Origin: a virus
DNA length: 56,727 nucleotides
IMG/VR virus record: IMGVR_UViG_3300024518_000353
Span: 1-56,727 of that record
Strand: one strand, 5' to 3'
Of this stretch, positions 1,390-56,727 are shown one piece after another. Under the pieces are notes generated by a model that saw only the letters and a list, made by a program, of their open reading frames with translations, had not been told where the DNA came from and searched no databases. The translations under genes and the position numbers were made by a program. How positions within the stretch are numbered: position 1 is the first letter of the stretch; each line of letters begins with the position of its first letter.

Positions 1390-1615
1390 AACTCTTTTAT
1401 ATTTTTACTATATATGTATAGTATTATTATTTAGTTGGGTTATGTACGTTTGTAGTATGGCAACCTGGAATACATTTTGTAAAGGTTGTCCAGCGACATG
1501 GTACAAAGAACATGTTGAACCAATACTTCCTAGACCTATGCCTAAACCTGTCGTACCAATTAAAGAAGAAGATGATTGGGATGATGATGATGACGAGGAA
1601 ACAGATTGGCGATAA
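1358..1615 (+). CDS. Small membrane protein with proline-rich and acidic tail
   Basis: This 85-residue protein overlaps the end of terS by 32 bases. One transmembrane helix (about residues 13-33) is followed by a cysteine pair, a proline-rich stretch (P-R-P-M-P-K-P) and a strongly acidic C-terminus of mixed Asp/Glu. I do not recognise the family. A single-pass membrane protein beside terminase could belong to lysis (spanin-like) or to packaging. An upstream GTG (1337) is possible, but ATG 1358 is simpler. Confidence 0.55.
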   Translation: MLSSLNKLINKTLLYFYYICIVLLFSWVMYVCSMATWNTFCKGCPATWYKEHVEPILPRPMPKPVVPIKEEDDWDDDDDEETDWR

Positions 1616-1740
1616 GAATAATTAATGAAAATACTTATTGGTTTATTTCTGTAGATTTTAGAAGAAAAGTAAAACCAAAAGAATATAAGTCCCCTGTAGT
1701 TGCATGGGGTAGTAGTAAAGATTATGTTACAGACAAGTGA
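1606..1740 (+). CDS. Possible 44-residue protein overlapping terL
   Basis: This is an open frame with a TTG start preceded by a purine-rich GAGGAAACA. It overlaps the previous stop and runs 17 bases into terL. The product has a W-F-I-S-V-D-F core and many lysines. The frame bridges exactly between its neighbours, which is typical of phage operons, but no ATG is available and the family is unknown. Confidence 0.4.
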   Translation: MAIRIINENTYWFISVDFRRKVKPKEYKSPVVAWGSSKDYVTDK

Positions 1741-3247
1741 GAATTTAATAAAGCTTAGAGAATTATATTTTCAAAGAGCAGTACAACAATCTAAAGATAG
1801 CTTTCTACATTTTATAGCTATGTTTGCACCTACATTAGTTCCTGATTGGATTATGGGTAAACATATTCATGTAATTGCAGATAGGTTAAAAAAAGTTGAG
1901 AATGGAGAAATAAAAAGACTTATGGTCTTTCTTCCTCCTCGTTCATCTAAATCAGTTATATGTTCAAAGTTATTTCCTGCATGGTACGTAGGGCGACACC
2001 CACAACATGAGATACTAACTGTTTCTCACTCTGACCAACTAGCTTCAGATTTTGGTAGGTCAGTAAGAGATTTAGTAAATCATGATTTATTTAATACTGT
2101 CTTTCCACAAGTACAATTACGTAGTGATGTTAGAGCAGCAGGAAAATGGAAAACAAATCAAGGTGGTTCATATTATGCAGCAGGTGTTAGAAGTCAAATA
2201 GCAGGTCGTGGTGCACATATTGCAATACTAGATGACGTAATGTCTGAAGAGGACTCCTTTAGTGAAACAGGTAGAAGATATGTAAAGGAATGGTACCCTT
2301 CAGGTTTACGTACACGTATTATGCCTAATGGTTCAATTGTAATTATTAATACACGTTATCATGAAGATGATTTATGTGGTTGGTTATTAAGACAGGAATC
2401 ACAAATAAAATTAGAGAATAAATGGGAAGTAATAAAAATCCCTGCATGGATAGACGAAGATTCAAGTAAGTTACTGGATTTACCTGTAGGGTCTTCCTAT
2501 TTTCCTGAATGGAAACCTAGTAAAATTTTAAAAACAGATGAAGAAGAAATAAAGGCAAGTAATGGTTTAAGGTATTGGGAGTCTCTTTATATGCAGAATC
2601 CTGTACCAGACAGTGGTGGTATTATTAAAAAGAAGTGGTTTCAATGGTGGGACTATGATGAACCACCTGCATGTGACTATATAATACAAACATATGATAC
2701 TGCTTTTTCAACAAAAACAACTGCTGATTTTAGTGTTATTCAAACCTGGGGTATCTTTCAACATATGGAAACTGATTCTACAGGAAGAGAAACTTGGGTT
2801 TCAAATTTAATTTTATTAGGAAATGAAAAAGGTAGATTTGATTATCCTGAATTAAGAGCTAAAGCACAAGAATTATATGAGTATCATAAACCTGATGTAT
2901 GTATTATAGAGAAGAAAGCAAGTGGTCAATCTCTGATACAGGACATGCGTAGAGCAGGTTTACCAGTCTTAGATTATATTCCTGATAGGGATAAGACTGC
3001 AAGAGTCTACGCAGCTACACCATTAATGGAATCTGGAAGAGTTTGGATTCCTAAAGGACATGAGTGGAGTGATGATTTATTTAGTGAAGCTATCACATTT
3101 CCAAATGGTAGACATGATGACCAAGTTGACGCAATGACTATGGCAATACACTATATGAAAGAATCATGGAATCTAGTTCACCCTGATGACCCTGATTATG
3201 AAGAAGGTCATGAAAGAAAAAAAAGGGTTGCATATTGGAAAGTTTAA
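1724..3247 (+). CDS. terL: Terminase large subunit (packaging ATPase-nuclease)
   Basis: This motor pumps DNA into the procapsid and cuts concatemers. In the 507-residue product the ATPase domain has a divergent Walker A P-P-R-S-S-K-S (residues 71-77) and Walker B I-A-I-L-D-D (166-171). The C-terminal RNase H-like nuclease domain shows Y-D-T-A-F-S, C-I-I-E-K-K-A-S-G and the final R-H-D-D-Q-V-D-A acidic motif. These are features of the Terminase_6 family. The ATG at 1724 is chosen over an in-frame TTG at 1700 because it starts the conserved part. Length is normal for the family. Confidence 0.95.
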   Translation: MLQTSENLIKLRELYFQRAVQQSKDSFLHFIAMFAPTLVPDWIMGKHIHVIADRLKKVENGEIKRLMVFLPPRSSKSVICSKLFPAWYVGRHPQHEILTVSHSDQLASDFGRSVRDLVNHDLFNTVFPQVQLRSDVRAAGKWKTNQGGSYYAAGVRSQIAGRGAHIAILDDVMSEEDSFSETGRRYVKEWYPSGLRTRIMPNGSIVIINTRYHEDDLCGWLLRQESQIKLENKWEVIKIPAWIDEDSSKLLDLPVGSSYFPEWKPSKILKTDEEEIKASNGLRYWESLYMQNPVPDSGGIIKKKWFQWWDYDEPPACDYIIQTYDTAFSTKTTADFSVIQTWGIFQHMETDSTGRETWVSNLILLGNEKGRFDYPELRAKAQELYEYHKPDVCIIEKKASGQSLIQDMRRAGLPVLDYIPDRDKTARVYAATPLMESGRVWIPKGHEWSDDLFSEAITFPNGRHDDQVDAMTMAIHYMKESWNLVHPDDPDYEEGHERKKRVAYWKV

Positions 3248-3256
3248 GTATATAAT
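3228..3256 (+). promoter_or_regulatory. Candidate promoter for the portal region
   Basis: TTGCAT (3228-3233), 17 bases, then TATAAT (3251-3256). It overlaps the end of terL and precedes the gene at 3288. A perfect -10 and ideal spacing make it plausible. The start is also AT-rich, so chance cannot be excluded. Confidence 0.45.
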
Positions 3257-3287
3257 AGAATATAATATATAACTGTGAAAGAAAATT

Positions 3288-3995
3288 ATGTTACCCAGAG
3301 GATTATTTAATTTATTAAAGTTACAATCAGCTAAAGCTATTCCTACGACTAGAGGTATAACAACTACTCCTGCTAATAAAGGTTTAGAATCTGTAGCTGA
3401 AAGAATTAATGTTTTTCCAGTTCCTCAAAGAATGTTAGATAGAACAGGTAAAGATTTTAAACCTTTTTTAAAAGATGTAGAATATGAAAAAGGAGGAAAA
3501 TATTTAAACCCTGTAACAAAAGAATCTTTAACTAATAAAAATTTAAAAGATGCAACTATATCTATTAGTGAAGATGGAAAACCAAATTTTAAAGCTAGTC
3601 CTATTGAAGCTGATATTGTTGGAAGTCCTGATGTTAAAGGAGCAACAAAAATAAAAACAAATTTATTTAAAAAGAAAGCAGGATGGAAATGGATAGATGC
3701 TCCAAAAGGTTTTGAGGAAGTTCCAACTTTAGTTTCTGTTGAGAATAAAGGTAAACATTATTATGCATTAAAAGCTGATTTTCCTAAAGGTGTAAATTTA
3801 TCAAGATATGCTGAGTCTAAATCAGAACCCAGACTAAGACCAACAATGAAAGGTTTTGTAGAATTAGGAGAACCTGTTGGAACAATATCAGTTAGAGGTA
3901 AAGAACATGTTGTTTACGATAGAATAGTAAATATGAAAGCAGGAGGAATGATTCAAAGAAATAATTATAATTATAACACACAAAGGACTATATAA
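3288..3995 (+). CDS. Unknown phage protein before portal
   Basis: A 235-residue protein of unknown function between terL and portal, sharing one overlapping base with the portal start. It is lysine-rich with predicted beta segments. It ends in a glycine-glycine then R-N-N-Y-N-Y-N-T-Q-R motif resembling short C-terminal tails in other genes here (see 12407 and 13287). Position suggests a minor head or packaged protein. There is no Shine-Dalgarno sequence at the ATG. Confidence 0.6.
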   Translation: MLPRGLFNLLKLQSAKAIPTTRGITTTPANKGLESVAERINVFPVPQRMLDRTGKDFKPFLKDVEYEKGGKYLNPVTKESLTNKNLKDATISISEDGKPNFKASPIEADIVGSPDVKGATKIKTNLFKKKAGWKWIDAPKGFEEVPTLVSVENKGKHYYALKADFPKGVNLSRYAESKSEPRLRPTMKGFVELGEPVGTISVRGKEHVVYDRIVNMKAGGMIQRNNYNYNTQRTI

Positions 3996-6430: not shown

Positions 6431-6573
6431 TGAGTGAAATTATAAAAGGTCCTAAGAATAAAAAAGGTTTTGGTGACTGGTCAAAGATGCCAAGCACGGA
6501 TTATTCAGTCAGAGTAAAAAAGGGTGTCCTAAATGAATGGCAACCTGATAGTACATATAAAATTAAAAAATAA
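6430..6573 (+). CDS. Small conserved-looking protein (47 aa)
   Basis: The ATG shares its A with the portal stop codon. The product is basic and contains G-F-G-D-W-S-K-M-P and N-E-W-Q-P-D-S-T-Y. Function unknown. Tight overlap with portal suggests translational coupling and possibly a head-completion role. Confidence 0.55.
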   Translation: MSEIIKGPKNKKGFGDWSKMPSTDYSVRVKKGVLNEWQPDSTYKIKK

Positions 6574-6575
6574 TT

Positions 6576-6782
6576 ATGATACATAAAATTATTTCTGAAA
6601 TTGAGAAGGAAATAACGAATGAAATTGCACAAATCCAAGAATCATTGGGGGATGGTATTTGTCAAGACTATTCTCACTATAAACATCTAACAGGTTCAAT
6701 TGATGGATTGAATAAAAGTAAGATGGTTATAAAAAATATATATAAAAAAATGATTGATGGAGATGAAGATGCAGACGATTAA
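6576..6782 (+). CDS. Small helical protein (68 aa)
   Basis: A short, mostly helical protein beginning I-H-K-I-I-S-E-I-E-K-E. It has a D-Y-S-H-Y-K-H-L-T-G-S-I-D-G-L-N segment of a kind common in small phage proteins near the portal. Function unknown. It overlaps the start of the GroES-like gene. Confidence 0.6.
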   Translation: MIHKIISEIEKEITNEIAQIQESLGDGICQDYSHYKHLTGSIDGLNKSKMVIKNIYKKMIDGDEDADD

Positions 6783-7185
6783 AATGCAAAAGGCAGTAAA
6801 AAATGATGTATGGCTTAATAACGAAGAAACTCCTGACCCAAAAGTGTTACCTGTTTTGCCTGGGTATCATGTGTTGGTTCGCCCTGTTTCGATAAGAAAT
6901 CAAACTAAAGGTGGTATCATGTTACCTGATTCAGTTAAAGAAGATATATCTTATCTTACAACTGTAGGAAAAGTTTTATCTATAGGTGATTTAGCTTATA
7001 AAGATAAAGATAAATTTCCTAATGGAAACTGGTGTGAGGTTGGAGATTATGTAAGCTATGGAAAACATGAAGGACAAAAATTTATTTATAAAGGTTTAAA
7101 ACTTTTATTATTATTTGATGACCAAATAATGATGAAGGTTGAAGACCCTAAACATTTAGATACAACTTATAATTTATCAAATTAA
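6769..7185 (+). CDS. GroES-like co-chaperonin
   Basis: The 138-residue product has the Cpn10 fold signature: L-P-G-Y-H-V-L-V-R-P near residue 30, then a mobile-loop-like T-K-G-G-I-M-L-P-D, V-G-K-V-L-S-I-G-D and G-D-Y-V-S-Y-G-K-H. It would cap host GroEL to help fold capsid or other virion proteins, like T4 gp31. No phage GroEL is present. ATG 6769 is chosen because GGAG lies six bases upstream; ATGs at 6754-6763 and 6784 are alternatives. It sits among head genes, which fits assembly. Confidence 0.85.
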   Translation: MQTIKMQKAVKNDVWLNNEETPDPKVLPVLPGYHVLVRPVSIRNQTKGGIMLPDSVKEDISYLTTVGKVLSIGDLAYKDKDKFPNGNWCEVGDYVSYGKHEGQKFIYKGLKLLLLFDDQIMMKVEDPKHLDTTYNLSN

Positions 7186-7200
7186 TAATATGGAAATAAA

Positions 7201-7332
7201 ATGCAGTTCCCTAAAGACTTAATTTTATTTACTAATATTAAATTTAAAGTAACAAAAAATACTAAACGATTAAAAGACTTATCTGATAATAGATGGGATT
7301 ATACAATAATTAATAGAAAGGGGAAAATATGA
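7201..7332 (+). CDS. Small basic protein (43 aa)
   Basis: An ATG follows GGAAATAAA, and the stop overlaps the next start as ATGA. The product is lysine-rich with F-P-K-D-L-I-L-F-T-N and D-N-R-W-D-Y-T-I-I. Function unknown. The coupling supports a real gene. Confidence 0.5.
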   Translation: MQFPKDLILFTNIKFKVTKNTKRLKDLSDNRWDYTIINRKGKI

Positions 7333-34130: not shown

Positions 34131-34339
34131 TGTGGTGGGAAAAACTTAAAAAGAAATTTTCAGATGCAGATAATGTTATTGACTTTAGTGTTGATGTACT
34201 TATTATAATGTTTGATGTTCTAACTACACCACTTCTTATACCTATTAGAATAGGCAGGTATTATATCAAAGGATTTTTTAAAGCAATATGTAAAAGATTC
34301 TTAAAGAAAACTTATCATAGGTTGTATGATAAAGAATGA
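34127..34339 (+). CDS. Small membrane-associated protein (70 aa)
   Basis: A hydrophobic central segment (V-D-V-L-I-I-M-F-D-V-L-T-T-P-L-L-I-P-I) lies between basic ends. Its stop overlaps the ATG of iscA. Function unknown. It may act in lysis together with the preceding gene. Confidence 0.5.
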   Translation: MMWWEKLKKKFSDADNVIDFSVDVLIIMFDVLTTPLLIPIRIGRYYIKGFFKAICKRFLKKTYHRLYDKE

Positions 34340-34659
34340 CGTTAGTAAACTTAACAGATAAAGCAAAAGAACATCTAAAGAATCTTGCTAAAGACCACGA
34401 TAAAAAATATGTTCGTTTAGAAGTTAAAGGTGGTGGTTGTGCAGGTTTTAAATATGACTGGTCATTTGATAACTATATACAGGACAGTGATGATTTCCTA
34501 GAGTTAGATGGCTTTACATTATTAATAGATAAATCTAGTTTATTTTATTTAATGGGAATGACTATTGAATATAAGAAAGAAATATTTGGTAGCTTCTTAG
34601 AACTAAAGAATCCTAATGCAACAAGTAGTTGTGGTTGTGGAGAAAGTTTTGGAGTATGA
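34336..34659 (+). CDS. iscA: A-type iron-sulfur cluster carrier (IscA/ErpA-like)
   Basis: 107 residues with the three family cysteines: C35 in G-G-G-C-A-G-F, and C99 and C101 in S-C-G-C-G-E-S-F. It holds and transfers [2Fe-2S] or [4Fe-4S] clusters to client proteins in the cytoplasm. All ligand residues are intact, so it should be functional. It is coupled to iscU by an ATGA overlap at 34656 and to small membrane genes upstream. It looks like a host-derived auxiliary gene at the end of the late operon. Confidence 0.92.
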   Translation: MTLVNLTDKAKEHLKNLAKDHDKKYVRLEVKGGGCAGFKYDWSFDNYIQDSDDFLELDGFTLLIDKSSLFYLMGMTIEYKKEIFGSFLELKNPNATSSCGCGESFGV

Positions 34660-35051
34660 CATATAGTAAAGAATTATTAGACCATTATGAGAATCCTAAA
34701 AATGTAGGGTCAATGAATAAAGAAGATAAAGATGTAGGTACAGGTCTTGTTGGTGCACCAGCTTGTGGTGACGTTATGAAACTACAGATTAAAGTAAGTG
34801 ATGATTCAATAATTGAAGATGCTAAATTTAAGACATTTGGTTGTGGGTCTGCCATTGCTTCAAGTTCACTAATTACAGAGTGGGTAAAAGGTAAAAGCAT
34901 TGATGAAGCTGATTCAATTAAAAATACTGAAATAGCTAACCATCTCGCATTACCACCAGTTAAGATTCATTGTTCTATTTTAGCTGAAGATGCAATCAAG
35001 GCAGCAATTGCAGATTATAAAAAGAAAAATGAAAGTAAAACATTACTTTAG
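34656..35051 (+). CDS. iscU: Iron-sulfur cluster scaffold IscU
   Basis: 131 residues. Clusters are built on C37, C63 and C106 with D39 (A-C-G-D) and H105. The chaperone-binding L-P-P-V-K is at 99-103. These positions are the same as in E. coli IscU, and D-H-Y-E-N-P and G-A-P-A-C-G-D-V-M-K-L-Q-I are near-identical. The start at 34656 (ATGA overlap with iscA) is chosen over an in-frame upstream start. IscS, HscA/HscB and ferredoxin are absent, so host partners of the ISC type would be needed. Confidence 0.95.
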   Translation: MTYSKELLDHYENPKNVGSMNKEDKDVGTGLVGAPACGDVMKLQIKVSDDSIIEDAKFKTFGCGSAIASSSLITEWVKGKSIDEADSIKNTEIANHLALPPVKIHCSILAEDAIKAAIADYKKKNESKTLL

Positions 35052-35644: not shown

Positions 35645-36220
35645 TTAAAAGAAAAGAGTAATTTTATTATTCTCTGGATTAATTTTACCCTTACCTTCTA
35701 AACAAATTAGTTTATTATCTAAGTTTAATTTAAAATATTGTTTATGAAAAGGTTTAACATGGAAATAAAAACTACCTACATATAGTGGTAAGTATTCTTT
35801 CTTATTACCAAATCTAGTTATATAAAATAATCCTGAACTTGCATTACCTATATGGATAGGTATTGTAAAATAAAAATCTGCATTATGTCCTAGATTAAAA
35901 TATGTTCCATCATTCTCAATGATTTCAAATCCTGGAATTGAATAGGAATTATCTTCAATTTCCTCAACATATATATTATTTAACATCTTTCTTATCTTAT
36001 AGAATAAGGAAGGAAACTTTTCAAAAAGAACAGGATTATTATTTAAACATTTTTGTTTATAACTTTTGTCATTATCTATAAGTTCTTTAGCTGAACCTAA
36101 AGATAATCTATTATTATATTTATTCCATGACTCTTCCAGTTCAAGAACAGACTGATGAATCGTATGACACGAAGTCTCATTTAAAAAATTTCTAACTGTT
36201 ATAGCTGATAGTATCTTCAT
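35645..36220 (-). CDS. Unknown protein coupled to the glycan-modifying fusion
   Basis: 191 residues, overlapping the end of the triple-fusion gene by 29 bases. The C-terminal half is strand-rich (F-Y-F-T-I-P-I-H-I-G and V-G-S-F-Y-F-H-V-K-P-F-H). This could be a small double-stranded beta-helix or cupin-like fold, with H-N-A-D as a possible metal site, but the motif is incomplete and no family is claimed. Context suggests surface-glycan modification. Confidence 0.55.
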   Translation of the reverse strand: MKILSAITVRNFLNETSCHTIHQSVLELEESWNKYNNRLSLGSAKELIDNDKSYKQKCLNNNPVLFEKFPSLFYKIRKMLNNIYVEEIEDNSYSIPGFEIIENDGTYFNLGHNADFYFTIPIHIGNASSGLFYITRFGNKKEYLPLYVGSFYFHVKPFHKQYFKLNLDNKLICLEGKGKINPENNKITLFF

Positions 36221-38471
36221 AATCAGGATGGTGCTCTCTTCCCCCAGTTTTCCATAACTCAGAAACTAATGTATCTTCACCATAAAATTCTATATGAATG
36301 TCAATATCTTTTCTCTGAAATAATTTCTCACAGTCTTGAGCCATAGCTAGTAACTCACCAGTTGTCCAAAACTTTTTGTTATTAGTAGTAACATGTAAAT
36401 ATTTTTTTCTACCTGTATCTTCTAATGCTTCTTTATCTTTAGGTTCAGGTACTGAACAATCAAAACCATATAGTTTAAAGTTTCTAAATCCTAACGTATG
36501 TCCAACACTTATTGCTCTCATTGCTGCACATGTACCACCAGTTAATAACACGGAGTTCTTTGGTATATCTAAATCTTTTGCAAGAACTACTTTATCTTTA
36601 GTGCTATTTGTACTTTCAATAATAGCATCTGAATATGCGTTCCAACCAATGATGTTTGCTTTCTTATCTTTTAAATGTTTAACAACTGAAACGTCAGTCA
36701 TTGATGATACAAAGAAAATAGTTTCATCAGGTACTTCTTTAAATAAATCTTTCCTAACAACACCATGTGTACTTGTGCCACCTATAGGTCTGGGGTCAAG
36801 TATGTTACAACCCCAAGGAATAATACCTTCTTTTAACAACATAGGTAATGAATGTTTAACACACATAATTTTATGATTAGAATGTTTTAAATAATCTTTA
36901 TACTTTAAAAAGGAAGGACCACCTGAAACTATAAGTAATGTTTCACCATGTGGTCTAGCTTTAATTAACCAATTTTTTATTTTCTTAATATTATTTTTTA
37001 TATTATTTTTAATATAATCTTTAGGCATACAGTCTTTAGGTTTGACAATAATAGGAACATGATTAAATTTTTCAGGTAAGGCAGGTAAGTTTTTATCATG
37101 AACTACAACACAAAGATGGGTAATACCTCCACCTACAACAGGGTCATATGAATGTAAAATTTTTCTTCTATACTTCTTATCTATTTTATCAAAGATTTTA
37201 TTTGTTCCTTTATGTTCTTCAGCAACATTTTTATCTTGTTCATCTTTAGTAAAGTAATCATCAAACACCACAAGTGGTAATCCTTTTGTCATACTATAAT
37301 CATGATGAACAGTTTCAAAGCTATGCCCACCATCAAGATAAGCCATATCAAAATCTTTCTGTTCAGTTAATGTAGTTTTAGTATCACCTTTAACTAAATC
37401 AAAATCAAAATCTTTATTCATTTTGTCTTTGACATATTTTTTAAATTCATTTAATCTTTTCTCAACTGCTTGATAAAGATTATGTGGTTTAGTATTTAAT
37501 TCTGTTTGGTCAGTAAATTCATCTGCGTCTTCAAATAAATCATAACCTTTATAATAAACTTTATCTACATTGTCAAAAGCTGCCAATGCCATTTCGATAG
37601 CTCTACCACCATTCCAAGTACCTGTCTCAAGTAACCTTGAAAACTTGTAATGTCTAATGACATCTGCCAATTGTTTATACCTTTTTGGACCAACGACATC
37701 AGGTGTGGTCTTATCTGATAGGAGTTGTTTTTTATTTCCTTTAAAGTGCTGAAAGAACTGCGATAAAGGAGAGTTATTAAAAGCATCAAGACCTCTTACG
37801 TCAGGGGTTAAGTTATGTTTTTTAATGCCATGAGCATTATAAAAATTAAATAGTCTTTCAAATATAAAACCATCATGCCATTCTCTATAAGAAAGAACTT
37901 CGTGACTATCATATATACCTCTCATATCTAATAGTAAATCTAAAGGGGGAGTGTTGTTTAAATTAAAAGCCATAAAAGATGTCTCGCTATAGTCAACATC
38001 TTTTCTGCCCAGATGAACTAACTCAGAATTAAGGGGAATAATTCCAAGAAAGTCTTTTTTACTCACAGGTTTATTAAGGATAATGTCAGCATCTAACCAA
38101 ACAACCCACCCCACCTGCACACCTTTCTCTACTAACTTGAAGGAAAAGTCAGTCAAGGCATACACTTTGTGACACCATTTAATGGCATCTAATCTCCAAT
38201 TATAAGGCATGCGTTTGCCTTCAGTACCATCATGTACTTTCATTTCTTCTCTGTACTTTAACATAGAAGGAATATCATTTAGATTTTTGAATGTTATCTT
38301 ATTTGATTTGGGAAACTCTTTTATTTTTTCTTTATCAAAGTCATGATAGTAAGCAGTTAAATGTAAATCATCAGCAAGAAATTTATTAGCTGACTCAATC
38401 ATTTTCTTTGCATAAGTTTCCCATCCTTTAGGACTAAAGGAAGTTACGATATTTATTGTGTCTTTACTCAT
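36192..38471 (-). CDS. Triple fusion: glycosyltransferase - methyltransferase - DUF115
   Basis: 759 residues. About 1-250 is a GT-A-like glycosyltransferase with D-A-D at 127-129 (V-V-W-L-D-A-D). About 260-470 is a class I SAM methyltransferase (L-L-E-T-G-T-W-N-G-G at 280-289; D-M-A-Y-L-D-G-G-H at 375-383). About 490-759 is a DUF115/MptE-like domain (L-L-I-V-S-G-G-P-S at 512-520; L-Y-G-F-D-C-S) found in sugar or flagellin glycosylation proteins. ATG 38471 is chosen because it starts one base after the upstream stop; longer frames overlap the neighbour. It probably modifies a surface glycan of host or virion. Confidence 0.8.
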   Translation of the reverse strand: MSKDTINIVTSFSPKGWETYAKKMIESANKFLADDLHLTAYYHDFDKEKIKEFPKSNKITFKNLNDIPSMLKYREEMKVHDGTEGKRMPYNWRLDAIKWCHKVYALTDFSFKLVEKGVQVGWVVWLDADIILNKPVSKKDFLGIIPLNSELVHLGRKDVDYSETSFMAFNLNNTPPLDLLLDMRGIYDSHEVLSYREWHDGFIFERLFNFYNAHGIKKHNLTPDVRGLDAFNNSPLSQFFQHFKGNKKQLLSDKTTPDVVGPKRYKQLADVIRHYKFSRLLETGTWNGGRAIEMALAAFDNVDKVYYKGYDLFEDADEFTDQTELNTKPHNLYQAVEKRLNEFKKYVKDKMNKDFDFDLVKGDTKTTLTEQKDFDMAYLDGGHSFETVHHDYSMTKGLPLVVFDDYFTKDEQDKNVAEEHKGTNKIFDKIDKKYRRKILHSYDPVVGGGITHLCVVVHDKNLPALPEKFNHVPIIVKPKDCMPKDYIKNNIKNNIKKIKNWLIKARPHGETLLIVSGGPSFLKYKDYLKHSNHKIMCVKHSLPMLLKEGIIPWGCNILDPRPIGGTSTHGVVRKDLFKEVPDETIFFVSSMTDVSVVKHLKDKKANIIGWNAYSDAIIESTNSTKDKVVLAKDLDIPKNSVLLTGGTCAAMRAISVGHTLGFRNFKLYGFDCSVPEPKDKEALEDTGRKKYLHVTTNNKKFWTTGELLAMAQDCEKLFQRKDIDIHIEFYGEDTLVSELWKTGGREHHPDYEDTISYNS

Positions 38472-38472
38472 A

Positions 38473-39306
38473 CTACATCTGTACCATTTTAGTAGGTCTT
38501 GAATCTTCGATAGTATTTCTATATAGTAGTTTCTCATCTTCCCAGTCTTGTGCAAACTGCATGTCTGTAAACTTACCACCAAACCAAGGACCACCAAGAG
38601 AATAATGTATAGCATTGGGTGATGCGTCAAGGTTTGAAACTTCAGGAATATGATTCCAACTAGCAGGTATCTCACCTATCTGGTTATCACTTGTCCATTT
38701 AAATTGATGAAGGTCTAAACCTTTCATAGTATTTACATCATCACTTGTTAAATTTTTTACATCTTTATGTTTCATATTAAATAACATTAGTGAAGACCAT
38801 AATTTCTTTTCATATCCTAGTTGTTTTTGATTGTCCATCTTAGTATCTTCAGTAGGTTGCCAATCAAACTTAACACAGGCAACAGCTTTATCAGCATGGT
38901 TCTCTTCTACAAACTTAAATAGTTTATCTACATCTCTAAGAAATAAAAAATCACAATCAACAAACATTACCCAATTTTTAACATTGTTTAATCTAGCAAT
39001 AGCAGGACACAAGAATCTTGTATGACTAAACTCTGTTGAAAAAGGTTTATCATCTAGGACATCATACTTTTGTCCTTCAGTATCTTCTCTCCATTCTCTA
39101 GTAAAATGTCCACTATTTCTTAAATGCCTGACATTAAGTTCAACTGCAGTTAAAGGTCGTGAACTATGCCTAATTAATGAATGTTCACAAACTTTATAAG
39201 CAATGTCTTCACGAGCATCATAACCTATAAAAACAAAGTTAGTTTGTTCTTTAGGTAATGGATGAATTGTTTCTTCTTTCTCTGTAGTTCTTGCACTTAT
39301 TAACAT
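38473..39306 (-). CDS. GT8-like glycosyltransferase
   Basis: 277 residues behind AAGGAATAAAT. It has a V-D-C-D-F-L-F-L-R-D motif (D-x-D, metal and sugar-nucleotide binding) and a C-terminal N-A-I-H-Y-S-L-G-G-P-W-F, as in GT8-type retaining transferases. It is one base from the fusion gene and probably acts on the same glycan. A strong promoter lies about 130 bases upstream. Confidence 0.8.
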   Translation of the reverse strand: MLISARTTEKEETIHPLPKEQTNFVFIGYDAREDIAYKVCEHSLIRHSSRPLTAVELNVRHLRNSGHFTREWREDTEGQKYDVLDDKPFSTEFSHTRFLCPAIARLNNVKNWVMFVDCDFLFLRDVDKLFKFVEENHADKAVACVKFDWQPTEDTKMDNQKQLGYEKKLWSSLMLFNMKHKDVKNLTSDDVNTMKGLDLHQFKWTSDNQIGEIPASWNHIPEVSNLDASPNAIHYSLGGPWFGGKFTDMQFAQDWEDEKLLYRNTIEDSRPTKMVQM

Positions 39307-39472: not shown

Positions 39473-41401
39473 TTAAACTATTTCACATGCACCTGCAGTA
39501 CATGCAAGTTCTTTTGATGAAGTGGTTGTGTCTTCTTTCTCATAGTTAGTTAAGTCCATCCAGTTAATATTTCTAGGAGTTTTCTTTAACCATTCTTTAT
39601 AAGTATTCTCATTAACTTCTTGATAAGGTGCTTGTTTGTATAAGTGTTCAGAGTGTGGTAAGAAAGCTACACCACTCATCACGTCAAAGTTTTCATATAC
39701 CCACGCACCTACTTCTAACCATTCATGTTCTTTAACATAAACAGTAATGGAAGGTTTATGTTCACACCAATCAAGCTGATATATTTTCCATATTTCTAAT
39801 TGTTCAAGAGCAGACTTCTCATCTCTCATAGTTGAACCTTTAGGGGACTTCATTGGAAAATAAAATACTTTAGTATCATTAGGTTTCATTACATCATCTT
39901 CACCATAGAAACCTTTTTCTAACATCATGTCACACAAAGGGTCTTTCTTATCTGCTCTTACAGTTCGTAGATAATAAGGAGAATAACGTGGGTGAATACC
40001 TGAAGCTGAGTCAACTAATTGTGATACAGTTCCTGAAGGTTTAACACATGTTATAGCAGTAGCTTGATTAACTTTTAATTTAGTTGACCATTTTTTATTT
40101 ACTTCAATAGCATGGGTTTTTAAAGTAGTTAACCATTCAGTTAATAATGCTTTATTAAAAATATTTCCTGAAAGAATATTATGGTCCATGATACCTGTCA
40201 AGGAAACACCAAGCAATCTTTCTTCTTCAGTATTCTCTTTCCATTTTTTAGTAATGTATCTAAAGTCAGAAAGTGTGGACTGTAGTGTACCAAAGATAGT
40301 AGCTAGTTCAATTTTTTCTTTCAAAGAATCAAGAGTATCTTCAGGTCTAATTACTACTTCAGATAAATTACAGAATTGTTTGTTGCGTAAAACGATTTCT
40401 GAACAAGGATTAGTTCCAAAGTCAAAGTCTCCATCTCTTCTACCTGAACGTGCTGCCATTTTTTGTGAAGCTACTCTATTAAAGATACCACGTTCACCTG
40501 ACTTAGAATCATAAAGAGATACCCACTCTTTCATAAATGTACCTATGTCAGGTTTCTCAGTATAAGCTACAGAGTTATTAGAATAACTTCTTTGTGGATT
40601 GTTGTCCCACCATTGTCCATTCTTTGCATCTCTCATTCTAATATCTGAAAGATTAGAAAGACTTATTAAAGCTGAACGTCTAACACCACCACACACAACA
40701 ACGTCTGCTATCTTACATACAAGGTCATGACACTCAAGGGAATTTAATTTTCTTCCACTAGCTTTCTTAAAAGTTTCAATACTAAATTTAAATAAATCTC
40801 TTAATGGGTCAGGACCACTAGCACGACCACCAAATGTTTTTAGTTTAGCACCTGCAGGTCTAACAAGAGACATATCAAACTGTGGTATCTGTCCTGCATA
40901 AAGCATAGCAATAAGTTCTCTATAAGATTTTGCCCACCCTATTTTACTATCATTAACTTTAATAACAGTTTCAGTAGAATGAAAGGACTCAGCAATGTCA
41001 GGTAGATTATCTACATATTGTCGTTCAACACTAAACCCTACACCTGTTCCACACATAAGGATGTACATAATCTCGTCAAAGGTTCTTACATTATCAATAG
41101 CAACATACGAACAATTAAATCCTGCAACATTATCTTTATCTAACGCAGGACCTGCAGTCATTAATGCTCTCATTGAAGGCATAACTTGTAGAGTAAGGAT
41201 AGCATTAAACCATCTTTCTCTTTCTTTGTTTTCTAATTTTTTACCTGTTATTTTTTCATAACGATTAGACATATAGTTTACATATCTATCAACAGTTTCT
41301 TGCCAAGTTTCCCTTCTGTTTTCTTTCTCTAACCATCTAGCATATCTTGAGATGGCAATATAACTTTGGTATTCAGTTGGTAATGTGTTGCTATTATTCA
41401 T
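39473..41401 (-). CDS. nrdJ: Class II (B12-dependent) ribonucleotide reductase
   Basis: 642 residues, monomeric adenosylcobalamin type. It reduces ribonucleotides to deoxyribonucleotides for phage DNA synthesis. Radical cysteine C333 and E335 lie in N-P-C-S-E-I. The redox pair is C97 (F-N-C-S) and C344, which is 11 residues after the radical cysteine as in RTPR. Reducing cysteines C634 and C639 close the C-terminus. It needs cobalamin from host or medium but no oxygen and no R2 subunit. It lies with replication genes. Confidence 0.93.
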   Translation of the reverse strand: MNNSNTLPTEYQSYIAISRYARWLEKENRRETWQETVDRYVNYMSNRYEKITGKKLENKERERWFNAILTLQVMPSMRALMTAGPALDKDNVAGFNCSYVAIDNVRTFDEIMYILMCGTGVGFSVERQYVDNLPDIAESFHSTETVIKVNDSKIGWAKSYRELIAMLYAGQIPQFDMSLVRPAGAKLKTFGGRASGPDPLRDLFKFSIETFKKASGRKLNSLECHDLVCKIADVVVCGGVRRSALISLSNLSDIRMRDAKNGQWWDNNPQRSYSNNSVAYTEKPDIGTFMKEWVSLYDSKSGERGIFNRVASQKMAARSGRRDGDFDFGTNPCSEIVLRNKQFCNLSEVVIRPEDTLDSLKEKIELATIFGTLQSTLSDFRYITKKWKENTEEERLLGVSLTGIMDHNILSGNIFNKALLTEWLTTLKTHAIEVNKKWSTKLKVNQATAITCVKPSGTVSQLVDSASGIHPRYSPYYLRTVRADKKDPLCDMMLEKGFYGEDDVMKPNDTKVFYFPMKSPKGSTMRDEKSALEQLEIWKIYQLDWCEHKPSITVYVKEHEWLEVGAWVYENFDVMSGVAFLPHSEHLYKQAPYQEVNENTYKEWLKKTPRNINWMDLTNYEKEDTTTSSKELACTAGACEIV

Positions 41402-53858: not shown

Positions 53859-54033
53859 CACGCACTCCACACCTAGCCATAATGTGTGACCTTGCGTCTT
53901 CTCTTTTGTGATAGCCAAACTTTTTAACTACCTTTGTGAGAATATCTGACATTGCCCAACCCCTAATCTTAGGGTCAGCTTTGCCTTGAGCCATTAGTTG
54001 CTCAATATATTTATATAATAATTCATTATTCAT
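53848..54033 (-). CDS. Small early protein (61 aa)
   Basis: Helical; L-L-Y-K-Y-I-E-Q-L-M-A-Q-G-K-A-D-P-K-I-R, then D-A-R-S-H-I-M-A-R-C. Possibly DNA binding. It starts behind GAAAGGAAAAAA. Confidence 0.55.
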   Translation of the reverse strand: MNNELLYKYIEQLMAQGKADPKIRGWAMSDILTKVVKKFGYHKREDARSHIMARCGVRDDE

Positions 54034-54957: not shown

Positions 54958-55980
54958 TTATAATGTGTTTATATCTTTTACAAATCCTCCATTTATAGCT
55001 TTTTGTAATTCAATTTCTCTTTTTTGTTTGTTCCATTTTGCTCTATATTTAAAGCGTAATAATATAGCGTTAGGTTTATTTCTTTTCCAATGTGGTAAAT
55101 AGTCAATAGTATCTCCATCAAAAACTTTTAATATCTTATCTTTTATTTTAATTGTTGATGGTAAAGGTTTATTCCTTGCCACATTAACAACAACAGCTAG
55201 TGATAAACCATTATTAATAGCTTGTAATGATTTTTCTATGTCATTAGTACCATAAGAATAAACTTTATGATATATACTTGATTGTTTTCTATTATAATTT
55301 TTTGTATAGTCGTATGGTATAGGTTTAAAATCTTTTAAATCAGTTTTATTGACAATATCAAATATAATTTTATCCATTGTAGTTAATTTATTTTGATATA
55401 TAACTTTTATATTCTCATAATTAATATCACTTGAAATATTTGGTCTTACTGACATAATTAGATTATTATTAATGCAATAATCTGAATACAAAAGTAAATG
55501 CCTGATAAAATTAGATAAAAATAATTGTGTATCATTAAGAAAAAATAATTTTCTATTATACATAGCATTTTTTTTATTCTTTTCATATGCTGGATTACCA
55601 CATTCAAAAGATACACAATTAATTCTACAATGTTTATTTGAATTTCCACATAAAGTTATTATTTCATTTTTTTGTTTATTAATTAACTTGTTTAAATCAA
55701 TAAATAAATTTAACTCATCGATTTTGTTTGTAGTATGTGGAGCTAATGATAAACCAACAGTATTTATGTTTAATATTTTTTTACTCTTTAATAATTTACT
55801 ACTATTTGTAGTTAATAAACCTGAAAAATTATATGTTTTATTCAAATCTATTAATTGCCTTTTATTAGCATTTAATATATTTATTTTTGTATTAGTTTTT
55901 TTATCTAATATAAAATTATTATCTAGGTTAAAAATTTTATTCTTTAGATAATCATTAATATCTATTACTTTTTTTTTCAT
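54958..55980 (-). CDS. Gp88-like phage protein with cysteine cluster
   Basis: 340 residues, resembling the actinophage 'gene product 88' (DUF7227-like) family: C111, C118, C122 and C127, then Y-N-R-K-L-F-F-L, V-R-P-N-I-S-S-D-I, P-Y-D-Y-T-K-N-Y-N-R near 222, N-G-L-S-L-A-V-V-V near 257 and F-D-G-D-T-I-D near 287. The order resembles radical-SAM-like barrels, and the cysteines could hold an Fe-S cluster. This is an inference; the family function is unknown. Composition is more AT-rich than its neighbours. Confidence 0.6.
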   Translation of the reverse strand: MKKKVIDINDYLKNKIFNLDNNFILDKKTNTKINILNANKRQLIDLNKTYNFSGLLTTNSSKLLKSKKILNINTVGLSLAPHTTNKIDELNLFIDLNKLINKQKNEIITLCGNSNKHCRINCVSFECGNPAYEKNKKNAMYNRKLFFLNDTQLFLSNFIRHLLLYSDYCINNNLIMSVRPNISSDINYENIKVIYQNKLTTMDKIIFDIVNKTDLKDFKPIPYDYTKNYNRKQSSIYHKVYSYGTNDIEKSLQAINNGLSLAVVVNVARNKPLPSTIKIKDKILKVFDGDTIDYLPHWKRNKPNAILLRFKYRAKWNKQKREIELQKAINGGFVKDINTL

Positions 55981-55988
55981 AATTATAA

Positions 55989-56393
55989 TTACTTATTTAA
56001 ATTATATATAGATTCATTATATCCAATAACAAAACCAAGTAATTCATTAGTAGAATTAAATCTTTTTATATCATTACAATATTTATTATAGCCATTATTA
56101 ATTGAATATTTATTAAAAGATACACCATTTTTTTTAATATCTTTTTTTGAAATATGACCATATCCAAATTTTAAAATATTACTGGTGAATAATGCACATT
56201 GATTTGCATAATAATATTTTTCTTTACTTTTTAAAACAAAATTAATATTTTCTTTATTAAGTTTAAATTGCAATTCACTTCTTTTGTTAAATAATTTTAA
56301 AGAGTCAAATTTTGAAAAATCCCTATTATGATTTAAAAAATTATCAATTTCTTTTATACTGTTTAAATCTTTTTCTATTTGTTTATTATTCAT
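55989..56393 (-). CDS. Unknown Asn/Lys-rich protein
   Basis: 134 residues with very high Asn, Lys and Ser. Helical start (K-D-L-N-S-I-K-E-I-D-N-F-L) and a Y-Y-Y-A-N-Q-C-A-L-F-T-S-N segment. Promoter P56432 lies directly upstream. Not recognised. The composition suggests recent acquisition together with the Gp88-like gene. Confidence 0.55.
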   Translation of the reverse strand: MNNKQIEKDLNSIKEIDNFLNHNRDFSKFDSLKLFNKRSELQFKLNKENINFVLKSKEKYYYANQCALFTSNILKFGYGHISKKDIKKNGVSFNKYSINNGYNKYCNDIKRFNSTNELLGFVIGYNESIYNLNK

Positions 56394-56475
56394 TGTCTTA
56401 TTTTCCTTTATAATTAAATTAATATTAATTCATTCTATCATTTATTTTTTTTTATTGTCAATAGTTTATTTATTT
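56384..56475. repeat. 92-bp direct repeat, copy A
   Basis: It is identical to 56609-56700 except for one base (C/T at 56397). It contains a start-codon region, a ribosome site (AAGGAAAATAA on the - strand) and a full promoter. Each copy precedes a - strand gene. Confidence 0.8.
56432..56461 (-). promoter_or_regulatory. Repeat-borne promoter A
   Basis: On the - strand TTGACA (56456-56461), 18 bases, then TAGAAT (56432-56437). It drives the 134-residue gene and probably the Gp88-like gene. Confidence 0.6.
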
Positions 56476-56480
56476 ATTTT

Positions 56481-56618
56481 TTATTTTTTATACTCTACTT
56501 CTACAATATATCCATTGTTCTCGAGTATTTCCAAAACTGTTTGTAAATCATTAGCAACAAACATTTTTTGTTCATCTACATCATCAGTGTAAACTTTAAA
56601 ACTTTTTATATTATTCAT
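56481..56618 (-). CDS. Small acidic protein (45 aa)
   Basis: Contains F-K-V-Y-T-D-D-V-D-E-Q-K-M-F-V-A-N-D-L and G-Y-I-V-E-V-E-Y. It follows the repeat-borne ribosome site and promoter. Two beta strands and a helix are likely. Function unknown. Probably an early gene. Confidence 0.55.
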   Translation of the reverse strand: MNNIKSFKVYTDDVDEQKMFVANDLQTVLEILENNGYIVEVEYKK

Positions 56619-56700
56619 TGTTTTATTTTCCTTTATAATTAAATTAATATTAATTCATTCTATCATTTATTTTTTTTTATTGTCAATAGTTTATTTATTT
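56609..56700. repeat. 92-bp direct repeat, copy B
   Basis: The second copy, with a period of 225 bp. It runs almost to the window end, so further copies may lie beyond. The duplication would place two adjacent genes under the same regulation. Confidence 0.8.
56657..56686 (-). promoter_or_regulatory. Repeat-borne promoter B
   Basis: TTGACA (56681-56686), 18 bases, then TAGAAT (56657-56662) on the - strand, upstream of the 45-residue gene. Confidence 0.6.
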
Positions 56701-56727
56701 TTTTTTTATTTTTTTTTGTTGATAGTG

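Follow-up and report, generated by a model that had tools for sequence, protein, structure and literature searches.

A divergent Gp88-family protein of an AT-rich, marine-type phage, with a predicted shape near that of radical-SAM enzymes

The DNA analysed here, hereafter referred to as the window, comprises an entire virus record of 56,727 bases, the GC content of which lies mostly between 28 and 37%. The gene under study, designated P0001, is an open reading frame of 340 codons plus a stop codon on the minus strand (Table 1); a preliminary description of this DNA, made from the sequence alone, had given its exact coordinates and no strand. Between positions 54001 and 56000 the GC content falls to 22.6%, a dip which overlaps the gene and which may reflect a recent acquisition. 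Among isolates, the Pelagibacter phage HTVC115P alone matches this end of the window at the DNA level, and this match, together with the base composition, agrees with the earlier suggestion of an AT-rich, marine-type phage. The immediate upstream neighbour of P0001 is a 134-aa gene, for which family searches gave no convincing match, and the two genes are probably carried on one transcript.

Table 1. Features of the GP88 locus in window coordinates; residue numbers are those of the P0001 product
Feature	Position	Strand	Basis or remark
GP88-family gene P0001, 340 aa	54958..55980	-	ORF call, PF17338, phrog_1617, dN/dS 0.06-0.09
GDTID, residues 289-293	55102..55116	-	D293 invariant
YHKVYS, residues 237-242, core strand 4	55255..55272	-	Y237 and S242 invariant
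DYTK, residues 224-227, end of core strand 3	55300..55311	-	D and Y invariant; K replaced by A in 7/89
VRPNISSDI, residues 178-186, end of core strand 2	55423..55449	-	R179 and D185 invariant
Cysteine cluster, residues 111-127	55600..55650	-	Conservation in 86-89 sequences; loop after core strand 1 (72-77) in AlphaFold model
134-aa gene, function unassigned	55989..56393	-	ORF call; L001 has a counterpart at the equivalent position
112-nt repeat with promoter-like site, copy 1	56378..56489		96% identical to copy 2
Sigma-70-like promoter TTGACA-N18-TAGAAT, TG before -10	56432..56461	-	One of six such sites in the window
112-nt repeat with promoter-like site, copy 2	56603..56714		96% identical to copy 1
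Second copy of sigma-70-like promoter site	56657..56686	-	Within 112-nt direct repeat

A contig of a close relative (L002) joins both ends of the window, carrying the terminase small subunit gene, a promoter-repeat-like sequence and the GP88 gene, which indicates that the window ends are neighbours; they are not treated here as a biological terminus. The GP88 gene opens the minus-strand arm and is divergent from the terminase gene. Exact TTGACA-N16-18-TAKAAT sites occur six times in the window, against 0.31 expected, and all six are on the minus strand; two of them, both near-consensus, are carried by the two copies of the 112-nt cassette that precede the GP88 gene. Each repeat copy (within 56378-56714) is located upstream of a small ORF. 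A perfect consensus promoter site also precedes the GP88 gene of another contig, L003. In phage HMO-2011 and in the pelagiphages HTVC024P, 035P, 115P, 120P and 309P, the GP88 gene is the first to fourth of the record, HTVC023P being an exception in that its GP88 gene is positioned between two terminase genes and not at the start of an early operon. Transcription of mycobacteriophage Kampy at 5 min after infection is largely confined to genes 82-88 (PMC4626039), a block which includes the GP88 homologue, gene 87. The phage thus probably employs GP88 early in infection. No constant gene partner of GP88 was observed among 91 loci, where the two commonest neighbour families were present in 26 and 20 loci, respectively, while VRR-nuclease-like, terminase and DNA-methyltransferase neighbours were each restricted to some lineages.

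The window protein matches the Pfam GP88 family (PF17338) with 27.6 bits and an E value of 3.3e-6, narrowly passing the gathering cut-off of 24.4. Since DUF5131 proteins score up to 27.7 bits with the same model, the Pfam score alone is a weak basis for membership. Membership was settled by a PHROGs match to phrog_1617 (E 1e-22), by the lack of a match to DUF5131 (PF07505) in a Pfam search up to E 10, by the best viral-model structure match, which was to a Gene product 88 protein (E 4.6e-18, TM 0.65 on the query and 0.81 on the target), and by retention of the residues that are invariant in the family. These results uphold the proposal of a divergent Gp88-like protein; the DUF7227 label that accompanied it is not supported, as this family was absent from the Pfam matches up to E 10. 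Among 56 GP88 relatives, DUF5131 matches were found in two and were weak (best 0.0021). The Radical_SAM family PF04055 returned no Pfam match to the window protein and is absent from the 25 families most matched by members of the relative set A2; neither the window protein nor members of set A4 had a meaningful NCBIfam match, a PADLOC search with two GP88 proteins returned no match, and a direct sequence search of solved structures yielded no credible match.

An affiliation with an actinophage gp88 family had also been proposed. This holds insofar as mycobacteriophage Kampy gp87 belongs to the same Pfam family (1.4e-35) and PHROG (9e-141), while the picture of a family confined to actinophages does not, as members are carried by phages of alphaproteobacterial, gammaproteobacterial, acidobacterial and mycobacterial hosts. 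A compact relative used as query retrieved 264 phage records, 235 of which are mycobacteriophages, the remainder including Pelagibacter, Roseobacter, Mesorhizobium, Caulobacter, Stenotrophomonas and Puniceispirillum phages, and a scan of viral contigs, in which 600 candidate stretches were considered, identified at least 260 relatives. Gp88 occurs in several hundred sequenced phage genomes, including those of phages infecting the abundant marine SAR11 bacteria, and the family is largely phage-restricted. A cellular origin was considered and rejected: when 84,980 species genomes were scanned with one pattern, five loci emerged, one of which (L092) has phage-type genes alongside, and of 291 genomes from a single phylum, nine had a Pfam match, at least four of them through DUF5131 cross-matches. 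A contig binned as an archaeon (L094) encodes both a DUF5131-type protein with a C-x3-C-x2-C motif and a GP88 gene (positions 449-1153 and 6501-7298). Within the literature that was partially covered, no paper was found that names PF17338, or ‘gene product 88’ in the sense of this family; the ‘gp88’ of overexpression papers on Waterfoul and Amelie is a cluster K gene number, and its identity with the GP88 family is not established there.

All of the motifs listed in the preliminary description are present in the order given, i.e., the cysteine cluster (C111, C118, C122 and C127), V178-R-P-N-I-S-S-D-I186, D224-Y-T-K-N228 and D288-G-D-T-I-D293. As to the cluster itself, C111, C118 and C122 are family-wide, being invariant across 86 relatives (with one gap at C111), while C127 is not conserved, and the family cluster is therefore one of three cysteines. 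The invariant positions of this 86-sequence set include, besides C118 and C122, G128, R179, N181, D185, D224, Y225, Y237, H238, S242, D293 and F333. When Kampy, HMO-2011 and HTVC023P are added (89 sequences), the three cysteines, R179, D185, D224, Y225, Y237, S242, D293 and F333 are still conserved, the exceptions being N181 (in HMO-2011), H238 (conserved in 88 of the 89, with serine in Kampy) and K227, the TK lysine, for which alanine is found in seven sequences, including Kampy. HMO-2011 also has TDD in place of TSD.

The window protein retains all 19 invariant columns of the family, and lacks several near-invariant residues (R140, N236 and E245). It shares its membership features, i.e., a score above the Pfam cut-off, the PHROG and the invariant residues, with Kampy gp87, HMO-2011 phage1322_01 and HTVC115P gp03, and its gene is, as in many phages, among the first of an early arm. 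It differs in its Pfam score, which reaches ~100 bits or more in other members with known bits, in an N-terminal extension of ~60 residues, and in inserts at residues ~84-108 and ~208-222. Identity to members outside its own clade amounts to 23-31%, as compared to 93-96% for orthologues in other viral contigs. A comparison of the window gene with its counterparts on L002-L004 produced the dN/dS values given in Table 1, and this strong purifying selection within the clade points to a working gene rather than a relic. The window protein is thus a real, strongly conserved yet divergent member of the Gp88 family.

An AlphaFold model of the window protein was generated from a 56-sequence alignment (pLDDT 83.5, pTM 0.86), and the compact relative, a protein of 229 residues, was modelled separately (pLDDT 92.2, pTM 0.89); the two models share most of the alignment and are thus not fully independent. 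In the window model, the core strands comprise, in order, residues 72-77, 175-179, 223-226, 238-243, 260-265 and 305-309, and the invariant cysteines follow core strand 1, ahead of the first long helix. When the PDB matches of this model were aligned using VIA-align, the best 18 entries were all radical-SAM enzymes (Z 4.7-6.1), led by spore photoproduct lyase (Z 6.1) and including anSME, TYW1, SuiB, viperin, NifB and MoaA. For the compact relative, the best 19 entries were likewise all radical-SAM enzymes (Z 4.9-7.0), among which were QueE (Z 7.0), the PFL activating enzyme (Z 6.9), viperin, LipA and RlmN. Glycoside hydrolases and other barrels rank close behind the radical-SAM entries in both lists. 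By Foldseek alone, the PDB matches were weak, with no E value below 0.001 for either model, and radical-SAM enzymes constitute only a handful of its own top 50.

The predicted topology is compatible with a partial (beta/alpha)6 barrel with a cluster loop after strand 1, although Z scores of 4.7-7.0 are modest, could reflect merely a common strand arrangement and do not prove the fold. The radical-SAM reading of the fold is founded on the observation that both models, with different leading matches, rank radical-SAM enzymes first without exception, and on the location of the cysteines in the loop following strand 1. The models accordingly lend support to the earlier suggestion of an enzyme with a possible barrel fold, and the predicted shape and motifs of Gp88 place it near the radical-SAM enzymes.

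The cysteine spacing of GP88, C-x6-C-x3-C, is not the canonical radical-SAM C-x3-C-x2-C, and the GGE motif is absent. Radical-SAM members with non-canonical cluster motifs are known, i.e., ThiC, HmdA and PhnJ. A possible bridge is provided by DUF5131 (PF07505, phage Gp37/Gp68), which is related to the radical SAM mobile pair protein A (rSAM_mob_pairA, TIGR04471). With the GP88 model, DUF5131 proteins score higher than the cut-off over the cysteine region, a cross-match that was found in four genomes at places where DUF5131 itself scores ~1e-91 to 1e-104. A DUF5131 protein in turn matches the NCBI model TIGR04471 at 1.8e-22, which is below the curated cut-off of that model, and a shorter DUF5131 relative possesses the canonical C-x3-C-x2-C motif and a weak Pfam Radical_SAM match (0.004). 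DUF5131 and GP88 have in common a loop of three cysteines, the first two spaced C-x6-C, and NxxSD, TK and S motifs in equal order; they differ in the last cysteine gap, which is x2 with CY in DUF5131 and x3 with CL in GP88, and in distribution, since DUF5131 occurs in cells as well as viral contigs.

The order Cys, SD, TK and S is common to GP88, DUF5131, proteins resembling spore photoproduct lyase (SPL) and the solved SPL. In the latter, the residue mutated in the C140 entries is located two positions before the S of a TSD motif, which the VRPNISSDI of the window protein resembles. SPL (PF20903) and the radical-SAM superfamily provide the best solved-structure matches, with a cluster loop after strand 1 and the TSD/TK/FS order, whereas GP88 has no counterpart of C140, has other motif spacings and displays no direct sequence match. 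Profile-profile comparisons of GP88 with DUF5131 and SPL, using alignments built in this study, were weak (P 0.02-0.03 local; 0.003 global with DUF5131), and it is consequently the Pfam cross-match, together with the structures, that carries the bridge between GP88 and the radical-SAM enzymes.

DUF5131 also has a possible connection to defence, in that a DUF5131 protein matches the PADLOC candidate defence models PDC-M41B and PDC-M30B (E 1e-117 or better) and that the DUF5131 gene adjoins that of TcmP, a three-Cys-motif partner, in two genomes. At L104 (positions 1480-3582), a DUF5131 gene lies next to TcmP and its product is a PDC-M41B/M30B match.

Taken together, we consider it somewhat probable, at roughly 55%, that the window gene encodes a divergent Gp88 protein acting as an early-expressed radical-SAM-like enzyme, which modifies a host or phage molecule. 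Promoters read by the host sigma-70 would drive its synthesis as soon as infection begins, and the protein would form a six-strand barrel, in which C111, C118 and C122 of the strand-1 loop would hold an Fe-S cluster, presumably [4Fe-4S], while the strand-end residues R179/S184/D185, D224-Y225-T226-K227, Y237/S242 and G289/D293 would bind S-adenosylmethionine and the substrate. The ensuing radical chemistry may modify a host or phage molecule in the course of takeover or counter-defence. The idea of counter-defence draws on the match of DUF5131 to candidate defence models, which is an association only.

Three alternatives were weighed against this radical-SAM-like enzyme. It is unlikely, though worth considering, that Gp88 is a zinc-binding or otherwise cysteine-stabilised barrel enzyme, e.g., a hydrolase or nuclease, that performs no SAM chemistry and in which the three cysteines and a histidine hold zinc: the unusual cysteine spacing, the missing GGE motif, the close-ranking glycoside hydrolases and other barrels and the near-universal H238 would all suit such a protein, yet the radical-SAM block is unbroken through the top 18 and 19 entries of the two models, the cysteines occupy the post-strand-1 loop, the DUF5131 cross-match points to the same superfamily, and Kampy has replaced the histidine by serine. 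A rather improbable variant retains the radical-SAM-like fold and dispenses with catalysis, Gp88 then being a binding protein or decoy that interferes, for example, with a host defence in which related proteins operate. The PADLOC matches and TcmP pairing of DUF5131, the early and largely phage-restricted occurrence of GP88 and the near-invariant residues missing from the window clade are consistent with a decoy, but the invariant residues are concentrated at the C-terminal ends of strands and in the cysteine loop, as would be expected if the active site had been kept, and all 19 are present in the window protein.

The remaining alternative, more improbable again, overlaps the radical-SAM reading and differs in substrate, in that the enzyme would act on phage DNA, through repair or base modification, and not on a host target. 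SPL, a DNA-acting enzyme, heads the solved-structure matches of the window model and has the TSD/TK/FS order in common with GP88, and several loci and phages encode DNA methyltransferases close to GP88; the likeness to SPL, however, is limited to fold and motifs, with no cysteine equivalent to C140, and no DNA-modification gene is a constant neighbour among the 91 loci.

The preferred reading, that of an early radical-SAM-like enzyme, would give an early phage gene, active in the first minutes of infection, a concrete and testable chemistry, and would connect the phage family with cellular proteins that already figure among anti-phage defence candidates. The Gp88 family itself was already known; what is new is its assignment to radical-SAM-like barrels with unusual cysteine spacing, together with its immediate-early setting, and no paper linking the family to such barrels was found in the part of the literature covered. 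A broader generalization, which we put forward tentatively and regard as doubtful, is that Gp88 represents a phage-restricted radical-SAM class with a C-x6-C-x3-C motif, serving immediate-early takeover or counter-defence in unrelated marine-alphaproteobacterial and mycobacterial phages, and sharing an evolutionary connection with the DUF5131/TcmP candidate defence pairs of bacteria.

Several other genes of the phage are of note. An IscA/ErpA-type gene (PF01521, 8.7e-19) is followed by iscU (TIGR01999, 5.9e-69, above cut-off) at positions 34336-35051, representing a phage-borne Fe-S assembly pair with few relatives in phage records. A coupling of GP88 to this pair was considered; since the IscU relatives in phage records are not those of GP88-bearing pelagiphages, no special link between the two is claimed. 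A large ORF at 36192-38675, specifying an MptE-like domain and a methyltransferase domain, overlaps an ORF at 38473-39306, whose product is glycosyltransferase-like as judged by eye, and the two perhaps constitute a surface-sugar module. Finally, positions 39473-41401 encode an adenosylcobalamin-dependent ribonucleotide reductase of the RTPR-like type, scoring 315.5 bits against a cut-off of 340.
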